From the NCBI RefSeq assembly GCF_040869045.1, contig NC_090320.1, forward strand, positions 144,234,941-144,298,940: a stretch of 64,000 nt of DNA, read 5' to 3'. This document shows, piece by piece, positions 1,424 through 56,420 of this stretch. Origin of the DNA: Eurosta solidaginis (lineage: Eukaryota > Arthropoda > Insecta > Diptera > Tephritidae). The notes under the pieces are model-generated. The model searched no databases. It was given only the letters and a program-made list of their open reading frames with translations, and had not been told where the DNA came from. How positions within the stretch are numbered: the first letter of the stretch is position 1; the number at the start of each line of letters is the position of its first letter. Position numbers and translations under genes: made by a program.

Positions 1424-4069
1424 GGATATTACATTGAGCTCCGAGCGTGATATATCAAGGTATGATTGGATGGTTCTTGATAGACCATACTTCTCCGACC
1501 ATGCGTATATCACCTTCAGCATCCCCCTAAAGAGGGTAAAGAAGGGGGAACTTTTAGAAACCCTAGGTCAGCGAACTGAACTAAATTCCAGAAACAGGTA
1601 GAAACAAAACTGGGGCAACCCAAAGAGGTTGCCAATGTGGAGGAACTGGAGGAGTCGAATGAACTCCTAACAAGGACGCTTATGACTGCGTATAACAAAG
1701 CTTGCCCTCTAAGCAGATTCAGAGGAAAAGCAAAGCCGGTATGGTGGAGCAATGAGCTGCGTCTTTTAAGAAGACAGGTAAGAAAAATGTTTAAGCTAGC
1801 AAAGGCTGCGGAAAACGAAGCGTGTCGGGACGAGTACAGGGATCTACAAGCGTGACATTTCCAGGGCGAAGAGAATCTCATGGAAAAGTTTCTATACGGA
1901 CATAGAGTGCTCCAGCGAAACAGCACGGTTGAAAAAAGTCCTAGCAAGGGGGAACATAGTCCAGTGACTAATAATGAAAGAGAACGGGGAATGGTCGCGT
2001 AATAGTGAGGAATCCCCTGAGGTGCTTTTCGACACACGTTTCCCATCGGGTGACGGTTTAGAAGAGCCAGCAGATAACACTCACACTTCGATCACGGAGC
2101 GGGTAGTGCCTTGGTGAGCGATACCTCGATCGAATGGGCAGTAAAGACGTTTTCTAAGTCTAAATTGCTAGGCCCAGATGGTATATTCCCGGCCATACTA
2201 CAAGTTTCAAGTAGCGCGGTCGTGGGATGGCTTAACATAATATTCGATGGGTGCATAAGACTGAATCATGTACCGCACTCTTGGAGAACTGCTCGTGTAG
2301 CTTTCCTACTATAGACCCGTTAGTATAACATCATTTCTGCTCAAAACTTTTGAGAGGCTCATAGATGTGTACATAAAGTCCAACGTGGATGAAAAGCTGC
2401 TCTCCATAACACAGCATGCGTACACCAAAGGCAAGTCGGTAAACACCGCATTGCATAGGGTGGTAATAAAATAAATAAATAAAAATAAATGTAAGGCGCG
2501 ATAACCTCTGAAGAGATCTAAGGCCGAGCTCTCTTCCAATTTGCGTCGTGCTCCTCTTGATTTTTCCTACAAATTGGCCGGACGAGACCTACATGTTTTA
2601 TGCCGACTCCGAACGGCATCTGCAAGGTGTATGAGTTTTCACTGAGAGCTTTTCATGGCAGAAATACACTCGGAGCGCTTGCCAAACACTGCCGAGGGGC
2701 GAACCCGTTTAGAAAAATTTTCTTCTAATTGAAAAACCTTATTTCTAAAATTTTGATGTTGCTTTGCCCGGGGTGCGAACCCAGGGCATAAAGTGTGATA
2801 GGCGGAGCACGCTACCATCACACCACGGTGGCCGCCAGCTGTCATGTAATCTCAACGTATAGGAGAGGGTGAAGAAGGCTTCAACGGCACTTTATCCATG
2901 TAAGAGAATGCTGGGGTGTACATGGGGCTTATCGCCATCTCTATCTCATTGGGTTTTTACAGCGATTGTAAGACCTATTCTATACTATGGAGTTCTTGTT
3001 TGGTGGAAAGCCATACAACAAACAACATATGTACCTCAAAAAATTAAATTAGGTATGAATACTATCAATGCTTAGCATTACGGGAGCCCTGAAAACAACC
3101 CCGACGGCTGCAATGTATGCCATTCTGCACATTCCACCTGTAGGCCTGGTAGCAAAGAACAAAGCATTAACAACTGCAACCAGGCTCGGTGCCTCGGGCC
3201 AGCTTGAGCGCCGACCATACGGCCATAGTAGTATAGCGTTCTCAATCACAAGGCGAACAGACTACCTGATTCCCTCTCTGCGCTTCAAGGGAGGTCTTAA
3301 GGCCACAATAGAGGTAGACGGTTGGCGCAAGCGTGCGCAAATGGCGGACGAGGTGATACATGTGTACACAGATGGTTCCAAAGTAGTGGAAGGAGTAGGG
3401 TCTGCGGTATACTGTGCTGATCCGGAAATAAATAGATCCTGCATTCTGCCGGATTACTGTAGCGTTTTCCAAGCGGAAATATTAGCCGTAAATATTACCT
3501 GCAACCGCGTTAAATTTTATATTGACAGTCAAGCAGCAATTAAGGCAAAAATCTCGCATACCACAACATCTAAATGCGTGTTATAGGGTAAGCAGTCTCT
3601 GGAGTGAATCGGGGCAAAAGCATACATCTATATTGGGTTCCAAGGCATATGGGAATAGATGGGAATGAAAAAGCGGATGAACTAGCTAAAAAGGGCGCAT
3701 CTCTTGAAGCTTGCTCCGTAGGCGTCCCACCTAGACATGGCGAGAAATCGATCAAGCGGGAAAGGCGTGGGTTCAAGAGCGGGGCTATAAAGTGTCGAAG
3801 ATTATGTGTAGATCTTACAACCTGAGACTAACAAAGTTGCTTATATCATTAAAAAGATCAGTGATAGCAGGTGTAGGAAGTGCGGGTTGGTGGAGGAAAC
3901 GATCGAGCACGTCCTGTGCTCGTGCCCTGTGCTTGCGAAGCTAAGACTCCAGCTATTAGGAGTGATACAGCTGTCAGATCTAGAAGCAGCAAGTAGCTTA
4001 ATTCCTAGGAAGCTTCTAGTATTTGCCAAGAGGACGGAGTTATTTTATAACATAAGTCCTGGTTTTTGA
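1424..4069 (+). pseudogene. LINE ORF2 remnant (endonuclease end, RT, RNase H, C-terminal zinc motif)
   Basis: Pieces of ORF2 appear in different frames. An endonuclease C-terminus and linker lie near 1424-1855 (WWSNELRLLRRQV at 1741-1780). An RT N-terminal part lies at 2111-2314. Thumb and connection lie at 2869-3250. An RNase H block at 3350-3586 contains YTDGSKVVEGVGSAV and FYIDSQAAIKA, and WVPRHMGIDGNEKADELA follows at 3630-3690. A C-terminal Cys/His stretch near 3865-3920 closes the reading frame before the 3' UTR. The RT catalytic YADD box is missing, lost with about 510 bp at the SINE junction (2466-2837). Numerous frameshifts make it non-functional. Confidence 0.85.
2466..2837 (-). mobile_element. 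Full-length tRNA-derived SINE (copy S2)
   Basis: The minus strand begins with a tRNA-like head. A box A-like TGATGGTAGCGTGC lies at 2807-2820 and a box B-like GGGTTCGCACCCC at 2770-2782. The latter can pair as a T-arm (CTGGG/CCCGG around a 7-nt loop). These are internal RNA polymerase III promoter elements. The conserved body and an AATAAATAAAT tail follow. The insertion lies inside LINE copy 1, but the flanks do not form a duplication: compared with the full LINE, about 510 bp are missing exactly here. Confidence 0.9.
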
Positions 4070-4176
4070 TATGAATTTTCAGTTTGGTGGTTAAAACAAA
4101 CTTCTGGTAACACTACGGACTCAATCAGTCTATGTGAGGTCCTCATGGACCGGCCAGCTCAACATAACCTAACCTA

Positions 4177-11704: not shown

Positions 11705-11856
11705 AAGCTATGAAAATCAAAATATTGAAACAATTTCAATTTTAGGCACCTTAAAAACAAACTTGATTGCATATAATTTTTTAATACCGCATACTTTACA
11801 TATAGTTAACGACCATTTTAATATATACCTTCAGACGGAATATTCGGAAAAGACTT
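11705..11856 (+). pseudogene. Protease segment of the 412-like element, upstream half
   Basis: Open codons read LGTLKTNLIAYNFLIPHTL and, after a 2-base slip, PSDGIFGKDF, the C-terminal landmark of gypsy-type aspartic proteases. The frame ends exactly where the BEL/Pao element begins and resumes after it with FLKLSKCIINYASITI at 17851. This junction shows that the two parts were once contiguous and fixes the borders of the insertion to the base. Confidence 0.75.
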
Positions 11857-12346
11857 TGTTGAGCTACTAAGCCTTTTTAGCAGCTATACAAAATCAAGTA
11901 AAAGACCGATTCCGATTTGCACTAATTTATTTCAGCAAAGTTATACAACGAATGACTTAAGAACTATTTTGCGTTTATATTTCCTAATTTACGATGATTC
12001 CAATTACAAAAGAATGTGTCCCAAAACTGTTTTTATATATTCTTAAACAATTGTTTTTTTGGAGCTCTAAGTAAATGCATTCCATCCCATATATTGCATG
12101 TGTGGATATACACACATTACGCACATAAATATTTATGCGCCTAATTGTTTTGCATTTAACGTACCTATGTTCATATGTTTCTACAATAGGTTTGTGTGTT
12201 ACTAGTGAGGGAATAGGAAAATATGCAAAAAGGTTATCGCACGTATGTACATAAGTTTAAATTGTAATAGTTAAATTAGGGTGGTTCTAAAATTTTTGAC
12301 TTCAGTATGTGAATATATTCTATTGATTTTCAATGTCGGCTGCTGC
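11857..12346 (+). repeat. Left inverted terminal repeat of the BEL/Pao-type element
   Basis: 490 bp that match the reverse complement of 17359-17850 with only about eight differences visible by eye. The outer end is TGTTGAGC. The inner end stops at ATGTCGGCTGCTGC; read on the minus strand this edge encodes the last residues of the polyprotein (AAADIENQ and stop). Confidence 0.92.
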
Positions 12347-12865
12347 TCCGAACATCCCCCTCCCCGTTGAAAGGTTAGGGCTTTCAACAGAATCATTTAC
12401 TGGAAGGACGCACAGCTTATGCACTGCTCGACGAGTTGTACCAGTAGATGTACGCAGGACTGCCACTCGCACTACCCCATCTTCTCCATGTATTACTTCG
12501 ATTACGCGTGCTAAGGGCCACCTTAAGGGTGGCGAGTTTTCCTCCTTTAGACAAACGATGTCACCGACTTTAATGTTGGCCTGAGGTGTACGCCATTTGG
12601 AGCGTTGTTGAAGAAGAGTTAGATACTCGCGAGACCACCGCTTCCAAAAAACTTGTTGTATGTATGTTGCGCGCTGCCATCGGCCAAGTCGATTATAGTT
12701 TAAACTTGTAATGTCTGGTTCAGGAAGAGCTGTCATCGGACCGCTGATTAAAAAATGGCCTGGTGTTACACATCTAGATCTTCTGGATTTTCTGAAAGAG
12801 GTACTAGAGGACGCGAATTAATTATAGCGGATATTTGACATACCAATGTACGCAATTCATCGAAG
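12320..12865 (-). pseudogene. BEL/Pao integrase C-terminal region
   Basis: From 12736 down, 138 codons read through LNYNRLGRWQRATYIQQVFW, KVGDIVCLKEENSPPLRWPL and VVRVAVLRTSTGTTRRAV, the characteristic C-terminus of Pao-family integrases (DUF5641-like). It ends GMFGAAADIENQ, whose final codons lie in the left inverted repeat. The preceding part (12780-12960), which contains the expected Glu region (FGGLWEAAVKTAK), is in another frame. Two single-base shifts, near 12775 and 12950, separate the pieces. Confidence 0.85.
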
Positions 12866-14575
12866 TCAAGCATGAATGAGCCAATGGAACGGTAAAAATG
12901 CTGTTTTGCTGTTTTTACGGCCGCTTCCCACAAACCGCCGAAGTGTGGAGAGCGAGGTGAAATTATCGCTGAGGACTAAGTTTCGCAGCTCGCGGAGCTC
13001 ATTCTTGGCACCTACGAAGTTTGTGGCGTTATCCGACCAGATACAGCTTGGGATGCCCCGGGTAGCGATAAATCGTTTTAGTGCATCAATGAATGCACCA
13101 GTTGACAGGTCTCTTACCAACTCCATCCAGACAGCCTTTGTGGCGAAACATATAAATACGCTAACATAACATTTTTGATGCGAATTGTTGCGTACTTCAG
13201 ACTTGTAATAAAGCGGGCCGCAGTAGTCTACACCAGTAACTATGAAAGGGCGTGAAGCCTGAATGCGCTCTTTAGGTAGGTCACCCATTATGTGCTGGAC
13301 GAGTCGTGGCCTAGACCTGCAGCAAATGATGCATTTCTGAAGAACTCGTGAGACGGTTTTGCGTCCACTTATTGGCCAGAACTGCATACGAATGAAGGCA
13401 AGCAAGGCTTGCGGGCCTGCGTGATGATGTTTTCGATGAAAGTATGTGATTATTGAATTTGTAAGTGGATGGGCTTTTGGTAGAATACATGGGTGGCGCG
13501 ATTCAAAACTGAGCAACGAATTTTTCAATCTACCGCCTACGCGAATCACTCCGAAGTCATCAAGAAATGGTGATAGCGAAATAATATTGCTGGAAGTCGC
13601 GACGCATTTATTGGCTTGCAATGCGGTGTACTCGGGCCAAAGTTGCGCTCTTTGCACTATGCGAACGAGCAATTGTGTACCCTTTCGAATATCCGCAGCC
13701 GTGAGCTGGGATGACTTTGGCGCTTGTTTAATATTTAGGAATTTGCTGACATATCCGAAAATCCGCTGCATTGTCGTGAACGAATTGATGTATTTGAAGG
13801 ACAGCGTAATGTCAATGCGATTATTTTCGACAAGCAATACCTTTTTCCGAACCTCAGGAAGTTTTGGTTGGGAAGCGCACATGCGTGGCCAGCTCTTCTC
13901 TGTTTCTTGTAAAAAGGGTGGGCCGTGCATCCAAAGTTTTGAAATTAGAAGTTCCTTCGGCGTAGCTCCTTTGGATAAAATATCAGCGGGGTTCATTGCT
14001 GAAGGAACATAGTGCCACTGCATGCCTTCTGTCAATTGCTGTATGGTGGAAATTCGGTTCGCCACAAAGACATTGAACTTCGATGGTTCTTCTTGCAGCC
14101 ACGATAGCACGGTTGAAGAATCTGACCAGCAATGAAAAGAACAGTTAAAAATCTTCATTTTTGTAAACTCACCCACAAGCTGTGAGAGCAATGTAGCAGC
14201 GCAGAGTTCCAACTTGGGTACGGTAATGGTTTTCAGGGGTGAGACCCGGGCCTTTGAACACAAAAGGTGCACTTGGAAGCTGTCATCCTTGATTGATCGA
14301 ATGTAAGTACAGGCACCGTAGGCTTCAAGGCTTGCATCGCAAAATGCATGAATTTCGGTGATGGCCTCAGGCTGCAAAATATAACGAGGAAATGATAAAT
14401 GTTGCATTTCTGCAAACCCGTTGCAGAAATCGGACCAGGCAGTAACTAACGATTGTGGTAAACTCTCGTCCCATTCAAGCTTGTCTCTCCACATACGTTG
14501 AAGAAGAATCTTTGCCCTGGTTAGGGTTGGGCCCATTAGTCCAAGTGGGTCGTAGCACCGAGCTAGAGTAGACAA
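12866..14575 (-). pseudogene. BEL/Pao RT C-terminus, RNase H region and integrase core
   Basis: These 569 codons start at the STLARCYDPLGLMGP landmark that follows the RT palm in BEL/Pao. They run through an RNase H-like region (IHAFCDASLEAYGACTYI, KLELCAATLLSQLV, CWSDSSTVLSWLQ, FVANRISTIQ). The integrase zinc region follows (HRKHHHAGPQALLAFIR ... CIICCR). The catalytic core then shows its first two Asp residues in TGVDYCGPLYYKS and IWSDNATNFVGAK. The third acidic residue is past a frameshift near 12950. Frame entry at the N-terminus is through a shift in a seven-base A run near 14593. Confidence 0.88.
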
Positions 14576-15035
14576 AGCAGAGCGCTTGGAGTTTTTTTCC
14601 TAAATCTTGTTGCGGTGTGAAAGAGAATAGTAGGCTGTCCTTAATCGGGTTCCAAATTAAACCCAATGTTTTGGTGATGTTGCTGCCATCATCGAACTTC
14701 AGAAAACTTTCTTTGTCTTCATCTGGAATTTCACAAAGAATGTCGGTATTATTCGAACACCACTTACGCAGCTTGAAGCTTCCTTGCGCAAGGAGACTGG
14801 CTGTCTGTAACTTGATATTGCGGACTTCTTCCACGGAATCACCACCAGATATCATGTCATCTACGTAGAAATCTCGAAGCAAAGTTTTTGCACCAATAGG
14901 ATAAGTCGAGGATTCGTCAGTTGCGAGTTGATGCATCGCTCTTATTGCCAGAAATGCAGCAGGTTTGGTTCCGTACGTTACGGTATCCAGCTTATAAATC
15001 TGGAATTCTTCAAGCGGAGATTCCCGCCATAATAT
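14576..15035 (-). pseudogene. BEL/Pao RT palm with YVDD
   Basis: The same frame as the upstream 778-codon block continues past a TGA at 15036-15038 into ILWRESPLEEFQIYKLDTV, then TYGTKPAAFLAIRAMHQLA and the catalytic RDFYVDDMISGG. The catalytic Asp pair is intact. The frame is lost near 14593 at a homopolymer A run, where the downstream frame begins. One nonsense and one homopolymer slip are the only lesions in the RT. Confidence 0.88.
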
Positions 15036-17372
15036 TCACTGGAGCATGTTATCCGGAGGGGTGACGCGGACACACCGATACATTTTGCAAATGTCACCAG
15101 TAAGTGCTATAGGAAATGTGCGAAATCTGATTAAAATGTTAAATAATTTTTCTTGAATGGTTGGACCTGCCATGAGCAAGTCGTTCAATGAGAAACCAGA
15201 AGTAGTAGCCGCTGAGGCATCGAAGACCACTCTAAGTTTTGTGGTGCTACTGCTATCTTTGATGACGCAGTGATGCGGTAAGAAATATTTGCATTTGTGA
15301 AAACTATCGTTAGAGACTAAAGACATGTGATTAAGGTCAATATATTCCTTAATGAACTTACTATATTCTGTCTTAAGGTCAGGGTTTCGAGCGAATTTCC
15401 TTTCAAGACCTTCGAAGCGTTGACGCGATCTCAAATAAGAATTTCCAAGTACCTCCGGATTCTGTTTGAGGGGCAGACGAACCGAGTATTCGCCTAATGG
15501 TAAACGCGAATAATTCTGTTGAAAGTGTGCTTCACAAACGATGTCTTCCTGAGTGGCTTTGGATATGGGTTCGAAGTTTGTCTCAACTTCCCAAAATCGT
15601 CGCACTAGATCATCAAGTTTTGAGTCAAGGATGGTGTTGTTTGAAGATTTCTGCTGTCCAATAAAGGATGATAGTTTTGGAGCGCGTTGCCCTCCACCAG
15701 ACAACACCCATCCGAAGAGAGTCTTTTGGAGCAGAGGTAAGCCGGGCGCCAAGCGTATCTGCCCCACACAGAGTAAGTCGAAGAATAGGCCTGCTCCGAT
15801 GAGCAGATCAATGCGTTCTGATAAGTGGAACCCCGGATCAGCTAGTTGAATGTTAGATGGAATGTTCCACTCACTGGTGCTTACGAAGCACCCAGGCTGA
15901 TTGTCGGTGATGGTGCGCACCACAACTGCTGTGATATTTGTTGAGAACTCTGATATTCGCGACCTTAGTAGGAGCTCCACTGAATAGCCTTCCGTTGAGA
16001 AGTTGGCATCTCCGATGCCGGAGACTGTAACCGAAGATTTTGTCTTCAGCAGTTGAAGTTGGTTTACGAAGCGAGATGTGATAAAATGTAGTTGGGAGCC
16101 AGAATCCAAAAGCGCACGGCAGGGCACGAAAGATCCAGCGCGATTTTTTATGAGAACGACGGCAGTAGTAAGAAGCACAGAATCAGACGGAGAAACCGAG
16201 GCATGGGGCAAGGCAGATATCGACGCAGTCATGGCATTGGATTGGCGTGTAACTGGCGGCGAAGACTTGATTTGACCATCAGTTGACGACACTGTTGAGC
16301 GGTTCAGGTGCAAGAGAGTATGGTGTTTGCACTGGAAATTGCGGCAGGTACCGGATTTGCAGTCCCGCAGTTGATGACCGCGCTTCAGACAGTTTATACA
16401 AAGAGCGAGCTTTTTAACTTCTTTAAGTCGTAAGTTCGGAGATAAATTTGCGCAGCGTTGGCAGCTATAAATTGCGTGATCGACCGACTCACAAAACACA
16501 CAAGAACTTGTTGAGCCCTTTGACGCAACGAAGGATTTCTTTTGGTTTGTACTTACACCTTTGTTCGGTTTCACGACCTGACCAGTATGTACCTGAGTGG
16601 CATGCTCAACATTCTCGAGTGTTCTACAGCGCTTTTCCAAAAAGGCAGCCAGCTGTTCCCATGAAGGTAATTCGCTAACAGAAGAGTTCTCCTCCCATTT
16701 AGCTTGTGTTGTTTTGTCGAGCTTCTGAAGTATCAAGTAAATGATGATGCAATCTGATATTTGCCCGTTGGTTGCCAGTGACTGCAATGCTCGTAAATGC
16801 GCAGTTACCTTGTCTGTCAACTCTCGAAGTTTGATTGCGTTGGAATCTGCCTTGTCCATCCCGAATATCTCCCTGATGTGTGCCTGAAAGATAAGACGTT
16901 TGTTATCGAAACGCTTGTGTAAGAGCTTTAAAGCGATTTTGTAATTGGAATCACTTATCTCTAGTGAGCGCACGGTGTCGAGGGCAGCGCCGCTCAAACA
17001 CGACCGCAGATGCTGCAATTTGTCGATGTTGGTGAGGTCGCTATCTTTGTCGATGATTGAGGTGAACATAGATTTGAAATTTGTCCACTCAGTATAAGCG
17101 CCGCTAAATTTTGGTAGTGTTAACCGTGGTAAGCGGGAACTATTGGCATTAACAATGATAGATTGCCCCTCGCTGGAGTTCATCTTAAGCGTGGAACAAT
17201 GTTGCGGGACACTACGTTTGCCAATCTCCCTCTGTATAGTTGCTCTTAGGTTGATTAAGGCGGTGTCGAAATTGGCTGGCAAGTCACTGCTGATAGATTC
17301 GGGCGCCAATCGAACTTCGAGAGTTGACAGACAAGGCAACTGCGCATTTACGAGCATTGCAGCAGCCGACAT
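15036..17372 (-). CDS. BEL/Pao gag-protease-RT N-terminal polyprotein (778 codons, ends at a nonsense)
   Basis: The ATG at 17372 is the last bases of the right inverted repeat; the first residues are MSAAAMLVN. Residues about 85-230 form a DUF1759-type gag (LPRLTLPKFSGAYTEWTNFK, LQHLRSCLSGAALDTVRSL). Residues about 290-360 hold Cys/His clusters (CVFCESVDH, CINCLKRGHQLRDC). Residues about 420-560 are the DUF1758-type aspartic protease, with active-site ALLDSGSQLHFIT and later LLIGAGLFFDLL. From about 640 the RT begins (KCKYFLPHHCVIK, TKLRVVFDAS, LTGDICKMYR). It is uninterrupted up to the TGA. Length and domain order are normal for BEL/Pao. Confidence 0.9.
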   Translation of the reverse strand: MSAAAMLVNAQLPCLSTLEVRLAPESISSDLPANFDTALINLRATIQREIGKRSVPQHCSTLKMNSSEGQSIIVNANSSRLPRLTLPKFSGAYTEWTNFKSMFTSIIDKDSDLTNIDKLQHLRSCLSGAALDTVRSLEISDSNYKIALKLLHKRFDNKRLIFQAHIREIFGMDKADSNAIKLRELTDKVTAHLRALQSLATNGQISDCIIIYLILQKLDKTTQAKWEENSSVSELPSWEQLAAFLEKRCRTLENVEHATQVHTGQVVKPNKGVSTNQKKSFVASKGSTSSCVFCESVDHAIYSCQRCANLSPNLRLKEVKKLALCINCLKRGHQLRDCKSGTCRNFQCKHHTLLHLNRSTVSSTDGQIKSSPPVTRQSNAMTASISALPHASVSPSDSVLLTTAVVLIKNRAGSFVPCRALLDSGSQLHFITSRFVNQLQLLKTKSSVTVSGIGDANFSTEGYSVELLLRSRISEFSTNITAVVVRTITDNQPGCFVSTSEWNIPSNIQLADPGFHLSERIDLLIGAGLFFDLLCVGQIRLAPGLPLLQKTLFGWVLSGGGQRAPKLSSFIGQQKSSNNTILDSKLDDLVRRFWEVETNFEPISKATQEDIVCEAHFQQNYSRLPLGEYSVRLPLKQNPEVLGNSYLRSRQRFEGLERKFARNPDLKTEYSKFIKEYIDLNHMSLVSNDSFHKCKYFLPHHCVIKDSSSTTKLRVVFDASAATTSGFSLNDLLMAGPTIQEKLFNILIRFRTFPIALTGDICKMYRCVRVTPPDNMLQ

Positions 17373-17850
17373 TGAAAATCAATAGAATATATTCACATAC
17401 TGAAGTCAAAAATTTTAGAACCACCCTAATTTAACTATTACAATTTAAACTTATGTACATACGTGCGATAACCTTTTTGCATATTTTCCTATTCCCTCAT
17501 TAGTAACACACAAACCTATTGTAGAAACATATGAACATAGGTACGTTAAATGCAAAACAATTAGGCGCATAAATATTTATGTGTGTAATGTGTGTATATC
17601 CACACATGCAATATATGGGATGGAATGCATTTACTTAGAGCTCCAAAAAAAACAATTGTTTAAGAATATATAAAAACAGTTTTGGGACAAATTCTTTTGT
17701 AATTGGAATCATCGTAAATTATGAAATATAAACGCAAAATAGTTCTTAAGTCATTCGTTGTATAACTTTGCTGAAATAAAGTAGTGCAAATCGGAATTGC
17801 GTCTTTTACTTGATTTTGTATAGCTGCTAAAAAGGCTTAGTAGCTCAACA
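17359..17850 (-). repeat. Right inverted terminal repeat of the BEL/Pao-type element
   Basis: The mirror partner of 11857-12346. Read inward on the minus strand it runs from TGTTGAGC to the gag ATG (17370-17372) with no gap for a primer-binding site. It should contain the promoter. A TATATAAAAACAG-like AT stretch is near 17667-17680, but no start site can be assigned. Confidence 0.92.
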
Positions 17851-17855
17851 GACTT

Positions 17856-20226
17856 TTTAAAATTAAGTAAATGCATAATTAATTATGCAAGCATAACTAT
17901 TAATACCGGCTTAAAAAATCTAAATATTCAAATTTTACACGGCACAAGTACCGATTATTTAGTTATTCCTCAAAGATACGAAGTTTATCGTTCATTTAAA
18001 TTACCAAAATGCGACAATCCTGTTTTTGTAGACTCACAGGAAATCTGTAGTGAAGTTTTTACGGGTTGACACAAATAATCCAGTTATAAAAATTTTAAAT
18101 GTTACTGACGAACTAAAACATGTCAACAATTGCAATATCGTAACAGAAGATATCACCAACAACAATGTCTACAAAATCAATGAAACTTCTAAAGATCAAA
18201 AACGCTTAGAGGAATTAACGAAAATTTTGAAAAATCAAATGCCAGGTTATGCTCAAAAACAGTTGCTAGATTTACGTTTAAAATATGCCGACGTATTCGC
18301 TTTAAAAACTGATCGTATGACTTGAAATAACTTTTACGAACAAAAACTACGTTTAACTGATAAAAATCCAGTATATATAAAAAATTATCGTTTTCCATAT
18401 ACACAACGCGAAGAAATTAATAAACAAGTCGAAAATTTAATGCGAAATGATTTGATAGAACCCAACTTTTCGAATTACAACAGTCCTTTAATTTTGGTAC
18501 CGAAAAAGGGTTCCTACAGGCCAAAAGTCTTATCGTGTGTGCGTTGATTTCAGAGCAGTCAACAAAAAGCTTATAGCAGACAAATTTCCATTGCCACGTG
18601 TAGACGACATACTCGACAATCTTGGCAGAGCCAAATACTTTTCAACTTTATATTTTTTTCTGGTTTTCACCAAATACCAATTTATGTCAATTCTAGAGAC
18701 GTAACATCTTTCAGTACAGATCGAGGAGGTTTTCGTTGGAAAGTGTTACTTTTTGGCTTAAATATAGCACCAAACGCTTTTTCACGTAAGATGTCATTAG
18801 CATTTTCAGGCATTTCGCCAAATAAAGCTTTTATGTAAATTAACGATGTTATCGTCATCGGTTGTACCGAAGCACATCTCCTCAAAAATTTGGAAAAAGT
18901 TTTCGAATTTAAAGTTAAATCCCAACAAATGCAATTTCCTTCGTTCCGAAATAACTGTTCTAGACCATAAATGTCCCTCGAAGGGCCTGCTGCCAGATGA
19001 CTCAAAAATAGAGGCAATTAAAAAATACACTAAGCTTGAAGACAAAGATGGTGTTAGGCGATTCGCAAATTATTATAGGCGTTTTATACCTAACTTCGCG
19101 TCATTGGCAGCCCCTTTAAATCGTCTAAATCGGAAAAAAAGTTTAATTTGTTTGGGATGATGCTTACGAAAATGCTTTCGAAAAACTAAGATTTTCGTTA
19201 ATGTCTCCTCAACTTTTACAATACCCTGATTTTTCAAAAGAATTTATTATCATTGCAGATGCTTCTAAGAGTAGTTGTGGCGCTATATTAAGCCAAAAAC
19301 ATGGAGATAATGATTTACCGATTTGCTTTGCATCAAACTCTTTCAATAAAGCCGAACAGAAAAACGCAATCATATAATTAGAACTTTTAGCAATACATTT
19401 TGCTATTAAACATTTTCGGCCGTATGTTTACGGTACACATTTCACGGTAAAATCAGACCATTGACCATTAGGTTATCTATTTAAATGAAAGATCCTTCCT
19501 CGAAACTCTCTAGAATCAAATTGGATTTATCAGAATACAAGTTTACAATTGAATATATTAAAGGAAAATCCAATGTTGTGGCTGATGCACTTTCGCGTAT
19601 AAGTATAGACGAAACTAAAGATTCGACAAATCACGTTTTAGCCGTTAAAACGCGATCACAAACTAAACAACAAGAATTACAAAACGAAAAAATAAGTTTA
19701 AATGATACGACTTCTAACGATAATAAAGTACAAGTTTATGATAAATTTTCATACGATTTTTCAAAAAAGATATCGCGAGTAAAATCATCTATGCAATATA
19801 ATAAAAAAAGGAGATCTCCAATTTACAAATTTATGTGCATTTAAAACATAAAAAATATAATTTACTTAATCTCGTGACTGATAACGAAATAACAAATTTA
19901 GATGAGTTACTTTCGAGGCTTGAAAAAGCAACCGAAAATCATATTAAAGAGTTAGAATGGCCAAAAAACGATATATTTTTCAATAATTTTTCTATTACGA
20001 ATTTTAAAATCCGCAGAAATGAAATTTTGAAATCATTACAAATAATATTGACGGACCCTGTAGAGACCGCAACAGACAATGAACAGAGGCAAAAACTTAT
20101 GACAATTTATCACGAAGACCCACTGTTAGGCGGTCATTGCGGTACAAAAAGGTTATATGCCAAATTACGAACTAAATATTACTGGAAAAGCATGACACGT
20201 GATACAGCGAAATTTTTAAATAAAAT
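17856..20226 (+). pseudogene. 412-like pol: protease end, RT, RNase H, integrase N-terminus
   Basis: The frame continues from the protease through LSKCIINYASITINTG to a linker, then the RT: VYIKNYRFPYTQREEINKQV, NSPLILVPKKG (about 18478-18510), YRVCVDFRAVNKKL, and FKVLLFGLN-type codons at 18730-18770. Spacer and RNase H follow (PDFSKEFIIIADASKSS at about 19225-19275, then a segment ending [11 protein letters not shown] at 19569-19602), and the integrase zinc region (GGHCGTKRLYAKLRTKYYWKSM at about 20126-20195). Many stops and frameshifts occur; for example the RT catalytic box region near 18835 is damaged (an INDVIVIG-like stretch). Clearly dead, and older than the elements inserted in it. 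Confidence 0.8.
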
Positions 20227-20239
20227 AATTTTAAACAAA

Positions 20240-20643
20240 ATTTTTAAGTTAAACGGTTTTATCGAAAACAATACTTACATGAAGTAATAATAATACTAAA
20301 AGCTAGAAAATAATTAGGTAGGTCCTAGGTACTAGTCATCACACTCCTCATCAATCTAGGGCGTTGATCAGACAATTAAATAAAAGCGTTGGGCGCGTAA
20401 AATTTCTAAAACTGTGAGGCGTAGCAAAACCTGATTATGGTTCAGTTGGTCTTATATATAACTATCAATAGAAATTTGACGCGTCCGACGCTTTTATTTA
20501 ATTGTCTGATCAACGCCCTAGATTGATGCGCAGTGTGATGACTAGTACCTACGACCTACCTAATCATTTTCTAGCTTTTAGTATTATTTTTACTTCAAGT
20601 AAGTATTGTTTTCAATAAAACCGTTTAACTTAAAATTTTTTTT
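20240..20643. repeat. Foldback: two 170-bp inverted arms
   Basis: The left arm (about 20242-20405) and right arm (about 20478-20640) are near-perfect reverse complements; for example AGACAATTAAATAAAAGCG on the left is mirrored by CGCTTTTATTTAATTGTCT on the right. The centre is about 70 bp of unrelated sequence. Large cruciform potential. Confidence 0.9.
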
Positions 20644-20879: not shown

Positions 20880-21815
20880 GTTCCAAATATGAGCCAAATC
20901 GGGCATCATAGGTCGCTTTCTATTCATGTATGTATTGTGTGTTCCAAATATGGACCAAATCGTACCACAAATACGATTTTTTTGAATATCTCGAAAGTTT
21001 GTGTCACCTTTTTATAGGTCGCTTTCTATTCTCGTATGTATTATGTGTTCCAAATATGGATCAAATTGGACCACAAAGACGATTTTTTTGAATATCTCGA
21101 TCTTTGCGCCACCTAGCGCGATTTTTTTTTTATAGGTCGCTTTCTATTCTTGTATGTATTATGTGTTCAAATTGAGCCAAATCAGACAACAAAAAGATTT
21201 TTGTGAATATCTCGATCCTTGCGCCACCTAGTGGCAATTTTTTTATAGGTCGCTTTTTATTTTTGTGTGTATTATGTGTTCCAAATATGAGCCAAATCGG
21301 ACCACAAATGCGATTTTTGAATATCTCGATCCTTGCGCCACCTATCGACGATTGTTTCATGGGTCGCTTTTTATTCTTGTGTGTACTATGTGTTCCAAAT
21401 ATGAGCCAAATCGGACCACAAATACGATTTTTGAATATCTCGATCCTTGCGCCTCCTAGCGGCGATTTTTTATGGGTCGCTTTTTATTTTTGTATGTATT
21501 ATGTGTTCCAAATATGAGCCAAATCGGACCACAAATACGATTTTTGAATATCTCAATCCTTGCGCCACCTAGCGGCGATTTTTTCATGGGTCGCTTTTTA
21601 TTCTTGTATGTATTATGTGTTCCAAATATGAGCCAAATTGGATCACAAATACGATTTTTGAATATCTCGATCCTTGCGCCTCCTAGCGGCGAATTTTTTT
21701 CATAGGTCGCTTTCTATTCTTGTATGTATTATGTGTGCCAAATATGAGCCAAATCGGACCACAAATAGGATTTTTGTGAATATATCGATCCTTCCGCCAC
21801 CTAGCGGCGATTTTT
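20880..21815. repeat. Minisatellite, about nine units of 112-117 bp
   Basis: The anchor TTCCAAATATG(A/G) recurs near 20881, 20941, 21048, 21281, 21391, 21507 and 21620, with degenerate forms near 21165 and 21737. Each unit carries GAATATCTCGATCCTTGCG and GCCACCTAGCGGCGA. One left unit is half length. Open reading frames across it are periodic artefacts. Confidence 0.92.
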
Positions 21816-21975
21816 TTTCTTATTATTGCATTGTCATCGGGTTTTGAACTATATTCCAAGTTTCAAGCTTGTAGCATATCGGGAAGTTACTTAAATTTCA
21901 ATTACAAAGTTCGTTCACAACAGCCGTGCATGCGGCCTGCCTGTCAAGTCAAGTTAAATAAAACCGTTTAAAAAT

Positions 21976-28475: not shown

Positions 28476-28759
28476 TAGGGTTTTTCAGTTTGGTCGTTAA
28501 AACAAACTTCTGGTAACACTACGGACTCAATCAGTCTATGTGAGGTCCTCATGGACCGGCCAGTTTAACCTACCTACCTGACAGTCAGTACCATTAAATT
28601 TTACTTAATAATCTTAAAATATAAATATATTTTAAGAATGCGCCAATGAATGTCAAAAACAAAAAACAAAAAAACAAATTTTTTTAATTTAGTTTTTTAA
28701 TAAGCTGATGCGGTCTGATGTGCGCTAGTGCAAGAAAAAAAGATACACTTTTTCTCCAC

Positions 28760-28806
28760 TTAACTCCCTACGTTTCGCCAATCTCCTTGGCATCCTCAGG
28801 GGCAGG
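28760..28806 (-). ncRNA. Hammerhead-like motif of PLE copy A
   Basis: The minus strand reads CTGAGGA, one extra T, helix GCCAA/TTGGC with a GGAGA loop, GAAA, CGTA, then GGG that can pair with the CCC preceding CTGAGGA. Same layout as at 11622-11664 and in copies C and D. Confidence 0.5.
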
Positions 28807-29014
28807 ATCTTTATTTTATAAGACACAAACAAAGATAATACATAAGAGACAATATCATCAAAACATGTATAAGTGTCACTTACATTGAAAAGTTGGAAAA
28901 AATGTATAATCTAAAAACATTAAACAATAACAAAAAAATTTTTTAAATTTGAGTCACATAACATAATTTATCTGTACCATCAATGTCAGGTACATTTGTC
29001 AGACTGATTTGTTA

Positions 29015-31450
29015 TCATAAACATAACAAATATGCTGCCGCGATTTCGTCGCTATCTTCCTTTTTGTTTATTGTTTTTTCTCTGTTTTTCAAAATATGTA
29101 GGCTCTCCAGTGTATATCTTGTTCTCTCTCTTTTCTCTGTGTCTAAAATTCTGGCGTTTTGTATATCAGCTGTATGCGCATGTGTCAGTATATGTTGCGC
29201 AAGAGCTGTACCGCTTTTGTTTCTTCTTATATCCGATTCGTGTTCTTGTAATCGCACTCCTAGTGGTCTTTTTGTCGTTCCAATGTATATTTTGTTACAG
29301 TCGTTGTTCTCTCCTCCGTTGCATTTAATTTCGTATATGACATTGTTTCTATGTTGTGATTCTATTTTGCTTTTGGTTTTGGTGTATACAGTTGAGAGTG
29401 TGCAATTTGATTTGTACGCCAGAGATATGTCTTGTTTGTGTTCTTTTAAGTTTTTGTTTAGCTCTTCTGAGAATTTTGGAATATATGTGATGTTGTGGTA
29501 TCGTTTTGTCTCATTTGTTGTTTGTGAAAGGGTTATTTGTTTGGACTTATTATTCATTTCTTTGGTTTTTTGTTCAATGAGAGTATTTACTAAATGACGC
29601 GTGTAGTTATTATTTATAAGCACTTTGCAAATTTTTTCCTTGTTCGATTCCGTAAATTGTTCATGGCTAAGGGTTAAAACTTTATTTATCATATTTTTAG
29701 CGGTATTGATTTTGTATTTTTTCGGATGGGCTGAGAGAAAATTGATTATTCTGCCTGACGCTATAGGTTTCGAGTACCAATTGAGAAAAATTTCATTGTT
29801 GTTTCTGTGTATAAGGACATCCAAAAACGGGATCTTTTGGTTTTCTTCTTTTTCCATAGTAAACTGTAATTTGTTATGATACTGGTTGAAAGTGTTCAGA
29901 ATGACCTCAACGTCGCTTTGTTTTACAATAGCAAAAATGTCGGCTACATATTTTACTATAAACTTTATATTTATGTTGTGAAGTTTCTTTAATTGTAAAA
30001 TGGTGGCATCGAGTAAATCGTCCATGATTACGTCCGCTATTGTCGGAGATAGGGGGTTGCCCATGGGCATTCCAAAGCTTTGCGTATAAGTTTTGTTATC
30101 GTACATGAAATAGTTATTGTCCTTCAGACAGAAGTTCAGTATTTCCAGAAACTTATTTCTCGGTATGTTTGTTTGGATCTGATGAAACTTACTCATTATG
30201 ATTTTGATAGCAAGATATGTGGGTATGTTAGTGAATAATGACACCACATCGAAAGATACCAATAAGTCGTTTTCGCATATTTCAACCTTCTCCAACCTAT
30301 CTTTGAGTCTAAAAGAGTTTTTTATATTGTACTCGTCAGAAATTAAGTCGTTCAGCAATTTTCCAACAAATTTGGACAAACCATAGCAGGGAACATTGAC
30401 CGAGGATGCTATTGAACGCAGAGGTAGATCCGGCTTATGAGTTTTCGGTAAGCCGTACAGTCGTGGCGCATTAGGTGCTGTGCATGTAAGTTGCTGTTTG
30501 TCTTTAAAGTTAATTAGTTTGCTTTTGTAGAGTTCGTCGACGATATTGTTGTTCTGTTTCTGTAGCTTGTTAGTTGGGTCAGTTCGGGCTACTCCATAAG
30601 TGCTTTTGTCTCCAAGCAACTTATTCATTTTCTCCCTGTAATCAGCTTTGTACATGACCACTGTTTTGTTTCCTTTGTCGGAATCTGTTATGATAATATC
30701 ATTTTTGTATTGTTTTAAAAAGCTTTTTGTTTTATTGAACGTTGCGACTATAAATGTGTCTACTGGGTTGTGCTTTATGTTACGTCTGTATTGATTTATT
30801 CTGCTGCTTAGGCGACATCTCTCCATTTCTTTCGTTCTCTCATCCTCAATTTGTTGTATGACTTGCTAAATCTCAGGTATGATCTTTAGCGGTTTAAAGG
30901 TGGTATTAGTAGTTGGTAGTGCAAATTTCTTACCAAGGGAGAGCAACCATTTAACGTCCTCCGGAAATTGAATGTCAGTTTTGTTGATAAAACAATTGTT
31001 GTTCATACACATACCTAAAGATTGCAGTTGCATTTGTTTCAATCTCTCGAGCTTCGATGTTTGTGTCTTTTTTAAATCGTTCGCCACTCTCTGGCTTAAC
31101 ATGTTCTGAGTGTGCATGACGGAGTTGAAATCACTTTCACTGAGGTTGCGCTTTAGTTGTTGTTCAGCATATATAATTTGATCCCGTATAGATTTTATAT
31201 TAATATTCGTTTGTGTGATTTCTATGTTCAGTATTTTCTTCTGGAACTGTTTTTTCGCTCTCTCTATTTGTTGCTTTATATTTTGTGATGTGGTTTATAT
31301 CTGTGTTCTTTTTGTTAAGTCCGTCAGATGCTGTGGTAGCATGTCGAACTTCCTACATTCCAATAGGAATTTTAGTGTAGCTGTCTGTTTTGTTAGTTTT
31401 TGTTTTTGTTTGCTGTGGTGTTTTAGATATGCGTGTACATCCTCTCCGTA
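29015..31450 (-). pseudogene. PLE copy A RT/GIY-YIG polyprotein (mutant YVAD)
   Basis: The best preserved PLE frame in the window: 603 codons open from 30826 to 29015, extended upstream through a TAG (30866-30868) to a 5' break at 31450 (KYGEDVHAY-type codons). Landmarks: WLLSLGKKFALPT, PRLYGLPKTHKPDLPLR, SFDVVSLFTNIP, GMPMGNPLSPTIAD, then KYVADIFAI where the catalytic second residue is Ala (plus-strand 29942-29944). The GIY-YIG endonuclease (CNKIYIGTTKRPLGVRLQEH) is complete to the C-terminus. The missing 5' end and the active-site change make it dead, although the rest is intact. Confidence 0.88.
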
Positions 31451-31453
31451 TTT

Positions 31454-31933
31454 AACAAATATGCTGCCGCGATTTCGTCGCTATCTTCCTTTTTGTTTAT
31501 TGTTTTTTCTCTGTTTTTCAAAATATGTAGGCTCTCCAGTGTATATCTTGTTCTCTCTCTTTTCTCTGTGTCTAAAATTCTGGCGTTTTGTATATCAGCT
31601 GTATGCGCATGTGTCAGTATATGTTGCGCAAGAGCTGTACCGCTTTTGTTTCTTCTTATATCCGTTTCGTGTTCTTGTAATCGCACTCCTAGTGGTCTTT
31701 TTGTCGTTCCAGTGTATATTTTGTTACAGTCGTTGTTCTCTCCTCCGTTGCATTTAATTTCGTATATGACATTGTTTCTATGTTGTGATTCTATTTTGCT
31801 TTTGGTTTTGGTGTATACAGTTGAAAGTGTGCAATTTGATTTGTACGCCAGAGATATGTCTTGTTTGTGTTCTTTTAAGTTTTTGTTTAGCTCTTCTGAG
31901 AATTTTGGAATATATGTGATGCTGTGGTATCGT
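31454..31933 (-). pseudogene. PLE copy B, endonuclease-only fragment
   Basis: It encodes the C-terminal endonuclease half on the minus strand (CNKIYTGTTKRPLGVRLQEHE ... DEIAAAYLL). At 31453/31454 it joins head-to-tail, without its own stop or 3' UTR, to the 5' region of copy A (KYGEDV-like codons). One arm of the 480-bp palindrome. Confidence 0.85.
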
Positions 31934-32428
31934 TTTGTCTCATTTGTTACGATACCACAGCATCACATATATTCCAAAATTCTCAGAAGAGCTAAACAAA
32001 AACTTAAAAGAACACAAACAAGACATATCTCTGGCGTACAAATCAAATTGCACACTCTCAACTGTGTACACCAAAACCAAAAGCAAAATAGAATCACAAC
32101 ATAGAAACAATGTCATATACGAAATTAAATGCAACGGAGGAGAGAACAACGACTGTAACAAAATATACATTGGAACGACAAAAAGACCACTAGGAGTGCG
32201 ATTACAAGAACACGAATCGGATATAAGAAGAAACAAAAGCGGTACAGCTCTTGCGCAACATATACTGACACATGCGCATACAGCTGATATACAAAACGCC
32301 AGAATTTTAGACACAGAGAAAAGAGAGAGAACAAGATATACACTGGAGAGCCTACATATTTTGAAAAACAGAGAAAAAACAATAAACAAAAAGGAAGGTA
32401 GCGACGAAATCGCGGCAGCATATTTGTT
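31454..32428. repeat. Palindrome with 480-bp arms and a 15-bp spacer
   Basis: The arms 31454-31933 and 31949-32428 are near-identical reverse complements around the spacer 31934-31948. Visible differences are few. The arms are the C-terminal coding parts of PLE copies B and C. Confidence 0.93.
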
Positions 32429-32436
32429 ATGTTTAT
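31949..32436 (+). pseudogene. PLE copy C, endonuclease-only fragment with 3' UTR
   Basis: From 31949 the plus strand encodes YIPKFSEELNKNLKEHK through CNKIYIGTTKRPLGVRL and ends AAAYLLCL with a stop near 32438. Unlike copy B it keeps its 3' UTR and hammerhead-like motif, and then runs at about 32810 into the 5' region of copy D. It is thus the upstream partial unit of a head-to-tail pair. Confidence 0.85.
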
Positions 32437-32647
32437 GATAACAAATCAGTCTGACAAATGTACCTGACATTGATGGTACAGATAAATTATGTTATGTGAC
32501 TCAAATTAAAAAAATTTTTTTGTTATTGTTTAATGTTTTTAGATTATACATTTTTTCCAACTTTTCAATGTAAGTGACACTTATACATGTTTTGATGATA
32601 TTGTCTCTTATGTATTATCTTTGTTTGTGTCTTATAAAATAAAGATC

Positions 32648-32688
32648 CTGCCCCTGAGGATGCCAAGGAGATTGGCGAAACGTAGGGA
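32648..32688 (+). ncRNA. Hammerhead-like motif of PLE copy C
   Basis: CTGAGGA at 32654-32660, T, helix GCCAA/TTGGC, GAAA at 32677-32680, CGTA then GGG pairing with the CCC before the first core. It lies between the copy C coding end and the start of copy D. Confidence 0.5.
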
Positions 32689-32899
32689 GTTAAGTGGAGA
32701 AAAAGCGTATCTTTTTTTCTTGCACTAGCGCACATCAGACCGCATCAGCTTATTAAAAAACTAACACTTATAAAAAAAATCCATAAAGTGGTCAGCAAAT
32801 AAATATAATAAATTTCACATCGGAAAGCCTGCCGAAAACTGTTCATCACCTTTATTTTATTTGATTATCTACACAAACAAAGTAATAAGAGAGGTAAAT

Positions 32900-35320
32900 A
32901 TGCGGAATTTCTACAAACACATGAAATATAAATACGGAGAGGATGTACACGCATATCTAAAACACCACAGCAAACAAAAACAAAAACTAACAAAACAGAC
33001 AGCTACACTAAAATTCCTATTGGAATGTAGGAAGTTCGACATGCTACCACAGCATCTGACGGACTTAACAAAAAGAACACAGATACAAACCCCATCACAA
33101 AATATAAAGCAACAAATAGAGAGAGCGAAAAAACAGTTCCAGAAGAAAATAATGAACATAGAAAATCACACAAACGAATATTAATATAAAATCTATACGG
33201 GATCAAATTATATATGCTGAACAACAACTAAAGCGCAACCTCAGTGAAAGTGATTTCAACTCCGTCATGCACACTCAGAACATGTTAAGCCAGAGAGTGG
33301 CGAACGATTTAAAAAAGACACAAACATCGAAGCTCGAGAGATTGAAACAAATGCAACTGCAATCTTTAGGTATATGTATGAACACCAATTGTTTTATCAA
33401 CAAAACTGGCATTCAATTTCCGGAGGACGTTAAATGGTTGCTCTCTCTTGGTAAGAAATTTGCACTACCAACTACTAATACCACCTTTAAACCGCTAAAG
33501 ATCATAGCTGAGATTGAGCAAGTCATACAACAAATTGAGGATGAGAGAACGAAAGAAATGGAGAGATGTCGCCTAAGCAGCAGAATAAATCAATACAAAC
33601 GTTCAATAAAACAAAAAGCTTTTTAAAACAATACAAAAATGATATTATCATAACAGATTCCGACAAAGGAAACAAAACAGTGGTCATGTACAAGCTGATT
33701 ACAGGGAGAAAATGAATAAGTTGCTTGGAGACAAAAGCACTTATAGAGTAGCCCGAACTGACCCAACTAACAAGCTACAGAAACAGAACAACAAATTCGT
33801 CGACGAACTCTACAAAAGCAAACTAATTAACTTTAAAGACAAACAGCAACTTACATGCACAGCACCTGATGCGCCACGACAGTACCGCTTACCGAAAACT
33901 CATAAGCCGGATCTACCTCTACGTCCAATAGCATCCTCGGTCAATGTTCCCTGCTATGGTTTGTCCAAATTTGTTGGAAAATTGCTGAACGACTTAATTT
34001 CTGACGAGTACAATATAAAAAACTCTTTTAGACTCAAAGGTAGGTTGGAGAAGGTTGAAATATGCGAAAATGACTTATTGGTATCTTTCGATGTGGTGTC
34101 ATTATTCACTAACATACCCACATATCTTGCTATCAAAATCATAATGAGTAAGTTTCATCAGATCCAAACAAACATACCGAGAAATAATTTTCTGGAAATA
34201 CTGAACTTCTGTCTGAAGGACAATAACTATTTCATGTACGATAACAAAACTTATACGCAAAGCTTTGGAATGCCCATGGGCAACCCCCTATCTCCGACAA
34301 TAGCGGACGTAATCATGGACGATTTACTCGATGCCACCATTTTACAATTAAAGAAACTTCACAACATAAATATAAATAAAAAAATATGTAGACGACATTT
34401 TTGCTATTGTAAAACAAAGCGACGTTGAGGTCATTCTGAACACTTTCAACCAGTATCATAACAAATTACAGTTTACTATGGAAAAAGAAGAAAACCAAAA
34501 GATCCCGTTTTTGGATGTCCTTATACACAGAAACAACAATGAAATTTTTCTCAATTGCTACGCGAAACCTATAGCGTCAGGCAGAATAATCAATTTTCTC
34601 TCAGCCCAGCCGAAAAAATACAAAATCAATACAGCTAAAAATATGATAAATAAAGTTTTAACCCTTAGCCATGAACAATTTACGGAATCGAACAAGGAAA
34701 AAATTTGCAAAGTGCTTATAAATAATAACTACCCGCGTCATTTAGTAAATACTCTCATTGAACAAAAAACCAAAGAAATGAATAATAAGTCCAAACAAAT
34801 AACCCTTTCACAAACAACAAATGAGACAAAACGATACCACAGCATCACATATATTTCAAAATTCTCAGAAGAGCTAAACAAAAACTTAAAAGAACACAAA
34901 CAAGACATATCTCTGGCGTACAAATCAAATTGCACACTCTCAACTGTATACACCAAAAACAAAAGCAAACTAGAATCACAACATAGAAACAATGTCATAT
35001 ACGAAATTAAATGCAACGGAGGAGAGAACAACGACTGTAACAAAATATACATTGGAACGACAAAAAGACCACTAGGAGTGCGATTACAAGAACACGAATC
35101 GGATATAAGAAGAAACAAAAGCGGTACAGCTCTTGCGCAACATATACTGACACATGCGCATACAGCTGATATACAAAACGCCAGAATTTTAGACACAGAG
35201 AAAAGAGAGAGAACAAGATATACACTGGAGAGCCTACATATTTTGAAAAACAGAGAAAAAGCAATAAACAAAAAGGAAGATAGCGACGAAATCGCTGCAG
35301 CATATTTGTTATGTTTATGA
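32900..35320 (+). pseudogene. PLE copy D RT/GIY-YIG polyprotein, 5' complete, frameshifted
   Basis: The ATG at 32900 (MRNFYKHMKYKYGEDV) gives the N-terminus that copy A lacks. Compared with copy A, an extra A near 33165 shifts the frame, about 40 bp are missing near 33610, an A is missing near 33688, and a deletion near 34376 puts the catalytic YVDD codons (34385-34396) out of frame. The RT landmarks (RLPKTHKPDLPLRPI, GMPMGNPLSPTIAD) and the endonuclease (CNKIYIGTTKRPLGV, stop at 35318-35320) are otherwise present. It has a normal YVDD where copy A has YVAD. Confidence 0.88.
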
Positions 35321-35529
35321 TAACAAATCAGTCTGACAAATGTAGCTGACATTGATGATACAGATAAATTATGTTATGTGACTCAAATTTAAAAAAATTT
35401 TTTGTTATTGTTTAATGTTTTTAGATTATACATTTTTTCCAACTTTTCAATGTAAGTGACACTTATACATGTTTTGATGATATTGTCTCTTATGTATTAT
35501 CTTTGTTTGTGTCTTATAAAATAAAGATC

Positions 35530-35570
35530 CTGCCCCTGAGGATGCCAAGGAGATTGGCGAAACGTAGGGA
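35530..35570 (+). ncRNA. Hammerhead-like motif of PLE copy D
   Basis: CTGAGGA at 35536-35542, helix GCCAA/TTGGC, GAAA at 35559-35562, CGTA and GGG. Identical core to copies A and C. Confidence 0.5.
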
Positions 35571-35703
35571 GTTAAGTGGAGAAAAGCGTATCTTTTTTTC
35601 TTGCACTAGCGCACATCTGACCGCATCAGCTTATTAAAAAACTAACATTTATAAAAAAAATCCATAAAGTGGTCAGCAAATAAATATAAAAAATTTTTTT
35701 AAT

Positions 35704-55539: not shown

Positions 55540-56420
55540 TCACCCTGGTCCACATTTTGGTCGATATCTCGAAAACGCCTTCACATATACAACTACCACC
55601 ACTCCCTTTTAAAATACTCATTAATACCTTTTATTTGATACACAAATCGTACAAACAAATTCTAGAGTCACCCCTGGTCCACCTTTCGAAAAGGCGTCGG
55701 ACCTATAGAACTAAGGCCCACGCCCTTTTAAAATACTCATTAACACCTTTCATTTGATACCCATATCGTACAAACAAATTCTAGAGTCACCCCTGGTCCA
55801 CCTTTATTGCTATATCTCGAAAAGGCATCCACCTAAAGAACTAAGGCCCACTCCCTTTTAAAATACTCATTAACACCTTTCATTTGATACCCATATTGTA
55901 CAAACAAATTCTAGAGTCACGCTGGTTCACCTTTATGGCGATATCTCGAAAAGGCGTTCAACTATAGAACTAAGGCCCACTCCCTTTTAAAATATTCATT
56001 AACACTTTTCATTTGATAACTATAGCGTACAAACAAATTCTAGAGTCACCCCTGGTCCACCTTTATGGCGATATCTCGAAAAGGTGTCCGCCTATAGAAC
56101 TAAGGCCCACTCCCTTTTAAAATACTCATTAACCATTTTCATTTGATATTCATATCGTACAAACAAATTCTGGAGTCACCCCTGCTCCACCTTTATGGCG
56201 ATATCGCGAAAAGGCGTCCACCTATAGAATTAAGCCCACGCCCTTTTAAAATACCCATTATCACCCTTCATTTGATATCCATATCGTACAAACAAATTCT
56301 TGAGTCAGCCCTGATCCACCTTTATGGCGTTATCCCTAAGGCGTTCACCCACCTATGGCCTACTCCCTCTTAAAATACTCTTTAATACCTTCCCTTTGAT
56401 ACACATGTCATAAAAACACA
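55540..56420. repeat. Minisatellite, about seven units of 127-130 bp
   Basis: The anchor TTTTAAAATACTCATTAA recurs near 55605, 55725, 55855, 55984, 56113, 56242 and (degenerate) 56368. Units include GGCGATATCTCGAAAAGGCG and CATTTGATACCCATATCGTA. Spacing shortens at the first unit. Confidence 0.92.

Follow-up and report, generated by a model that had tools for sequence, protein, structure and literature searches.

DIRS-type elements carry inverted terminal repeats and leave no target-site duplication, and BEL/Pao LTR retrotransposons are marked by direct LTRs, a short target-site duplication and a characteristic set of gag/pol domains. An inverted orientation of LTRs also arises by autointegration, which yields inverted two-LTR circles as described for retroviruses and Ty (PMC4751563). 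With respect to the integration step, PMC3790719 describes concerted insertion in vitro of two U5-type ends by Rev-A integrase with a 5-bp duplication, 26 concerted products having 5 bp and <1 having another length; two-U5 insertion with a 5-bp stagger is therefore biochemically possible. Switching of templates, both inside one packaged RNA and from one to another, has been reviewed (PMC3187697). We analyzed a stretch of 64,000 nucleotides of Eurosta solidaginis DNA (the window), contained in an assembly of 1.9 Gb and 569 contigs, in which a BEL/Pao unit at 11857-17850 lies between inverted arms. This element is one aberrant copy within an ordinary family of BEL/Pao LTR retrotransposons; its inverted-arm structure is real and defines no family. 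Both ends of the element are the same (U5) end, probably because its DNA was joined incorrectly when it was copied; the insertion was clean all the same.

The limits of the element (11857-17850) were set by a perfect GACTT at 11852-11856 and 17851-17855, a short target-site duplication as in BEL/Pao elements (probability of a 5-bp match by chance, ~0.0013 at the base composition of the window). The outer edge at both sides was TGTTGAGC. The perfect duplication, the common outer-edge start of the two repeats and the resumption of the host reading frame after the unit had all been described in an earlier sequence-only reading, and all three were confirmed. Joining of the flanks gave ...YIPSDGIFGKDFLKLSKCIINY... 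in an unbroken frame, which we take to be that of a Gypsy-type protease; the uninterrupted host site was ...YIPSDGIFGKDFLKLSKCIINYASITINTG... A stop codon is located just upstream of the insertion site in the host frame, and the host copy was thus already degenerate beforehand. The downstream ORF at 19835-20287 matched Integrase_H2C2, and a Pfam scan of two further downstream ORFs gave no match. Elsewhere in the window, several long inverted repeats (~97 to 100% complementary) surround reverse-transcriptase-like ORFs at 28689-35645 and resemble head-to-head copies of a Penelope-like element, and tandem arrays with units of ~114 and 130 bp are present at 20903-21818 and 55543-56323, respectively.

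The left arm is a normal 3' LTR of 498 bp on the minus strand (11857-12354; TGTTCGG...GCTCAACA), the start and end of which are as in other copies, and the left outer edge of the element is its U5 end. The right arm (17359-17850, plus strand) is the same LTR turned round, minus its first 8 nt (nt 9 to 498), and the right outer edge is again the U5 end. The earlier reading needs correction here: the repeat is the ordinary LTR of the family, with the left arm in its normal place and orientation. The statement that a polypurine tract was lacking also proved wrong, since GGGGAGGGGGA (12355-12365, minus strand) directly precedes the 3' LTR. At this position, GGGGAGGAGGA or a close variant was found in 24 of the 25 other loci with two LTRs, the exception being L033. 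The repeats are indeed ~490 bp in length, as had been reported: alignment of 11857-12346 with 17359-17850 covered 490 positions with six substitutions and two 1-nt indels. The arrangement at 11857-17850 is known from the assembled sequence alone, and an assembly artefact was accordingly considered; it is extremely improbable, because arms that differ by six substitutions are not one sequence placed twice and because misassembly would not yield an exact duplication at the U5 edge.

Comparison of the arms with other LTRs of the family bore on their source. At LTR nt 58, both arms have A, where 19/19 other LTRs have C; among other sites with exact flanks, C was present in 41/41 and A in 0/41. The arms differ by six substitutions, every one of them private to a single arm relative to the 19 other LTRs. 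One of the two indels was private to the 3' LTR; the other, in an A-run, was also found in 5/19 other LTRs and therefore need not postdate the insertion. Because the arms have a common nt-58 variant and their substitutions are private to single arms, the simplest reading of these comparisons is that both arms came from one source and were nearly identical at insertion, and they were probably identical at that time. Their divergence (6/490) fell inside the range found for 22 standard copies (the 25 two-LTR loci minus L033, L035, and L038), 3 of which were more divergent.

At the inner side of the right arm we found a second inverted piece that was absent from the earlier description. This 56-nt piece (17307-17362, plus strand) copies gag backwards from 16782-16837 (minus strand), with 54/56 positions identical and the two differences found only in the inverted piece. 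Antisense gag is joined to the antisense LTR with a 4-nt overlap (GCAG), and gag is joined to antisense gag with another 4-nt overlap (ATTG/CAAT). At the gag/inverted-gag junction, the window copy has GCGC (17303-17306), where 26/26 alignment rows from other copies that span this junction had GACT (24), TACT (1), or GATT (1). Compared with a standard copy, 408 bp comprising the primer-binding site (PBS), leader, and gag start were missing; in the 11857-17850 copy the polypurine tract is present and the PBS region is deleted. The reported absence of a PBS is thus true, through deletion: in 25/25 other two-LTR loci, a PBS directly follows the 5' LTR (TTTGGTGACCCCGACGTGAT in 22 and a one-base variant in 3). 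In the other copies, the PBS (TGGTGACCCCGACGTGAT) is presumably complementary to tRNA-Trp.

The coding region on the minus strand is of BEL/Pao type, as had been proposed, with Pfam matches above the cut-off to the gag/pol domains DUF1759, Peptidase_A17, Integrase_H2C2, and DUF5641; a match to DUF1758 was below the cut-off. It is split over four ORFs, all on the minus strand: the end of pol with DUF5641 (12320-12736; E = 3.9e-36), a pol piece with Peptidase_A17 and Integrase_H2C2 (12866-14575; E = 1.6e-46 and 1.2e-07, respectively), a pol piece without a Pfam match containing YVDD, which we take to be the reverse-transcriptase motif (14475-14936), and an ORF running from gag to reverse transcriptase (15036-17372; DUF1759, E = 1.2e-34). 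In the last ORF the first 22 codons are chimeric, being contributed by the inverted LTR together with the inverted gag piece. The Pfam scan of these broken ORFs gave no match to a reverse-transcriptase or integrase-core model. With its PBS, leader, and gag start lost, its LTRs facing outward, and its coding region split, the copy is dead on arrival, unable to repeat the cycle.

We then compared the window copy with its relatives in the assembly, in which 40 of 91 candidates from an LTR search were scored. Among the 29 other loci that were fetched, 25 had two full LTRs, and these were direct in 25/25, a proportion that is not unbiased because fetched loci had mostly been picked for same-strand LTR pairs; the 25 also include the overlapping loci L012 and L035, as well as L017 and L024, ~107 kb from each other and with the same duplication. 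LTR matches on both strands were found in 0/33 loci besides the window copy (the 29 and four more). A less biased sample, restricted to exact 19-mer ends, was provided by the U5 end itself. The exact 19-nt U5 end was present at 69 sites in the assembly, two of them in the window copy, and of 27 pairs of neighboring exact ends <12 kb apart, 26 were on the same strand and 1, the window copy, was on opposite strands. Seventeen exact sites had no neighbor within 12 kb; nine of these are inside fetched loci (L032, L034, and L036 to L042), mostly in a one-sided view, and the other eight are outside the inspected set. For one of these eight (C1:313882982), the LTR search gave a same-strand LTR ~5 kb away. 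The family habitually makes 5-bp duplications, which were exact at 20/25 two-LTR loci. Of the five loci without an exact duplication, L012 and L035 are overlapping parts of a single tandem array with outer flanks that share GTGGG, L033 belongs to an array, the duplication of L038 is off by one base, and the flanks of L027 do not match. A same-family tandem array with three LTRs and two internal regions, the outer flanks of which share GTGGG, is present at G000:C229:148883-160652.

These counts leave a negligible chance that the normal form of the family carries inverted terminal repeats, of which the window copy would be the single example: 26/27 U5-end pairs were on the same strand, no other locus had LTRs on both strands, and the internal sequence of the window copy was ~95 to 98% identical to that of direct-LTR copies. 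In its DUF1759 gag, Peptidase_A17, Integrase_H2C2, and DUF5641 domains, as well as in its LTR, polypurine tract, and 5-bp duplication, the window copy resembles the other copies, and it alone has an inverted 5' LTR and lacks the PBS, leader, and gag start; direct LTRs are found in the family (25/25) and not in this copy. The proposal of a family that replicates or integrates by another route was thus unsupported, all other two-LTR loci examined being direct and most having 5-bp duplications. Direct LTRs in every other two-LTR copy examined are also what the sequence-only reading itself had named as speaking against a new family. DIRS-type elements resemble the window copy in their inverted terminal repeats, whereas the window copy has an integrase zinc-binding domain and an exact 5-bp duplication. 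The Pfam scan of the four ORFs gave no tyrosine recombinase, and with the exact GACTT in place membership in DIRS was rejected and the comparison drawn with DIRS found inapplicable.

The alternative that had been offered, a rare rearranged LTR, was correct in outline, and its timing can be added: since the U5 edges and the duplication are exact and the frame is restored, the rearrangement is to be placed ahead of integration. The copy has the features of a two-U5 integrant, with a U5 terminus at either edge and a duplication as long as is usual in the family. Rearrangement of a standard copy after integration, with the 5' LTR swapped for an inverted one, is very improbable. The two internal junctions show that some rearrangement took place, and internal inverted pieces occur at two other loci of the family, but a later inversion would require a break precisely where the duplication meets the LTR, with GACTT and the U5 terminus left intact, and what is inverted is an internally deleted gag-LTR unit rather than simply the 5' end. 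With the autointegration products described in PMC4751563, the window copy shares an inverted LTR orientation arising before integration; unlike them, it is linear, is inserted with a duplication, and lacks LTR nt 1 to 8 at its inner LTR edge, which was therefore not produced by integrase. Autointegration was rejected, since it predicts that the inner junction falls at an exact, processed end of the LTR.

Inverted internal pieces were seen at two other loci. In L039 (G000:C1:183974601-183981600), at ~2557-2996, a ~300-nt inverted internal piece (2681-2977) adjoins a duplicated internal stretch and is possibly another strand-switching scar. In L017 (G000:C3:246540100-246549900), a ~1.1-kb extra stretch at 3016-4130 includes 63 nt of the element itself in inverted form and is absent from the close copy L024.

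The best explanation, to which we assign a probability of roughly 0.75, is that the element is a defective BEL/Pao copy for which aberrant reverse transcription, by joined minus strands or by fold-back, gave a linear two-U5 DNA that was inserted by integrase. Synthesis of every minus-strand cDNA begins from the tRNA primer next to U5. A first minus-strand cDNA (U5'-R'-U3') would jump at CTGC from U3 to gag and stop at ...ATTG-3', and a second, nearly full-length minus strand would stop in gag at ...CAAT-3'. These two 3' ends, complementary over 4 nt, would pair and extend on each other, giving a duplex with U5 at both ends because every minus strand starts beside U5; alternatively, one strand would fold back on itself and later jump into the LTR, with an identical final sequence. 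Integrase would then join both U5 ends as it does a normal U3/U5 pair. This explanation is supported by the exact GACTT, the exact U5 edges at both sides, the continuous frame of the joined flanks, the 5-bp duplications usual in the family, the nt-58 variant common to both arms and absent from the other LTRs compared, the substitutions private to single arms, and the GCAG and ATTG overlaps at the two inner junctions, and by the published work on two-U5 insertion (PMC3790719) and template switching (PMC3187697). The reaction in PMC3790719 is similar in that both U5 ends are joined with a 5-bp duplication, and differs in that it took place in a test tube with short retroviral oligonucleotides, whereas the window case is a genomic copy. 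Counting against aberrant reverse transcription are that there is one copy only, that neither template accounts for GCGC at the gag junction, that the A-run indel between the arms may predate the insertion, and that 4-nt overlaps are short and fit end joining as well. Short overlaps and unaccounted-for bases such as GCGC are typical of end joining, and host end joining may have linked two linear cDNA fragments, of which one had an internal deletion, into the two-U5 DNA before integration, leaving integrase to use the U5 ends. We consider this unlikely, as two cDNAs would have to be broken in gag, one of them deleted beforehand, and joined and would still have to reach integrase; the final sequence is the same for two joined strands, one folded strand, or host end joining.

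Among the matches listed in a search of titles and abstract openings in an open-access literature collection, none described an LTR element integrated with U5 at both ends. More broadly, we tentatively suggest that both RNAs of one particle may be reverse transcribed, with minus strands joined 3' to 3' and a U5/U5 copy integrated, as a by-product that LTR retroelements make recurrently and that annotation overlooks because LTR finders seek direct repeats, and that some 490-bp inverted arms could be sources of hairpin RNA against their own family. Such a role would be possible for the window copy. The 11857-17850 copy is not a new kind of element; it is a readable record of a copying accident, at base level a record of strand joining that went wrong in reverse transcription. 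It also teaches that other copies should be checked before inverted LTRs in one copy are called a new family. The integrase of this lineage is indicated to have accepted two U5 ends in a living genome, and because a two-U5 insertion is indicated here, a clean, duplication-flanked insertion is no proof of a normal U3/U5 donor.
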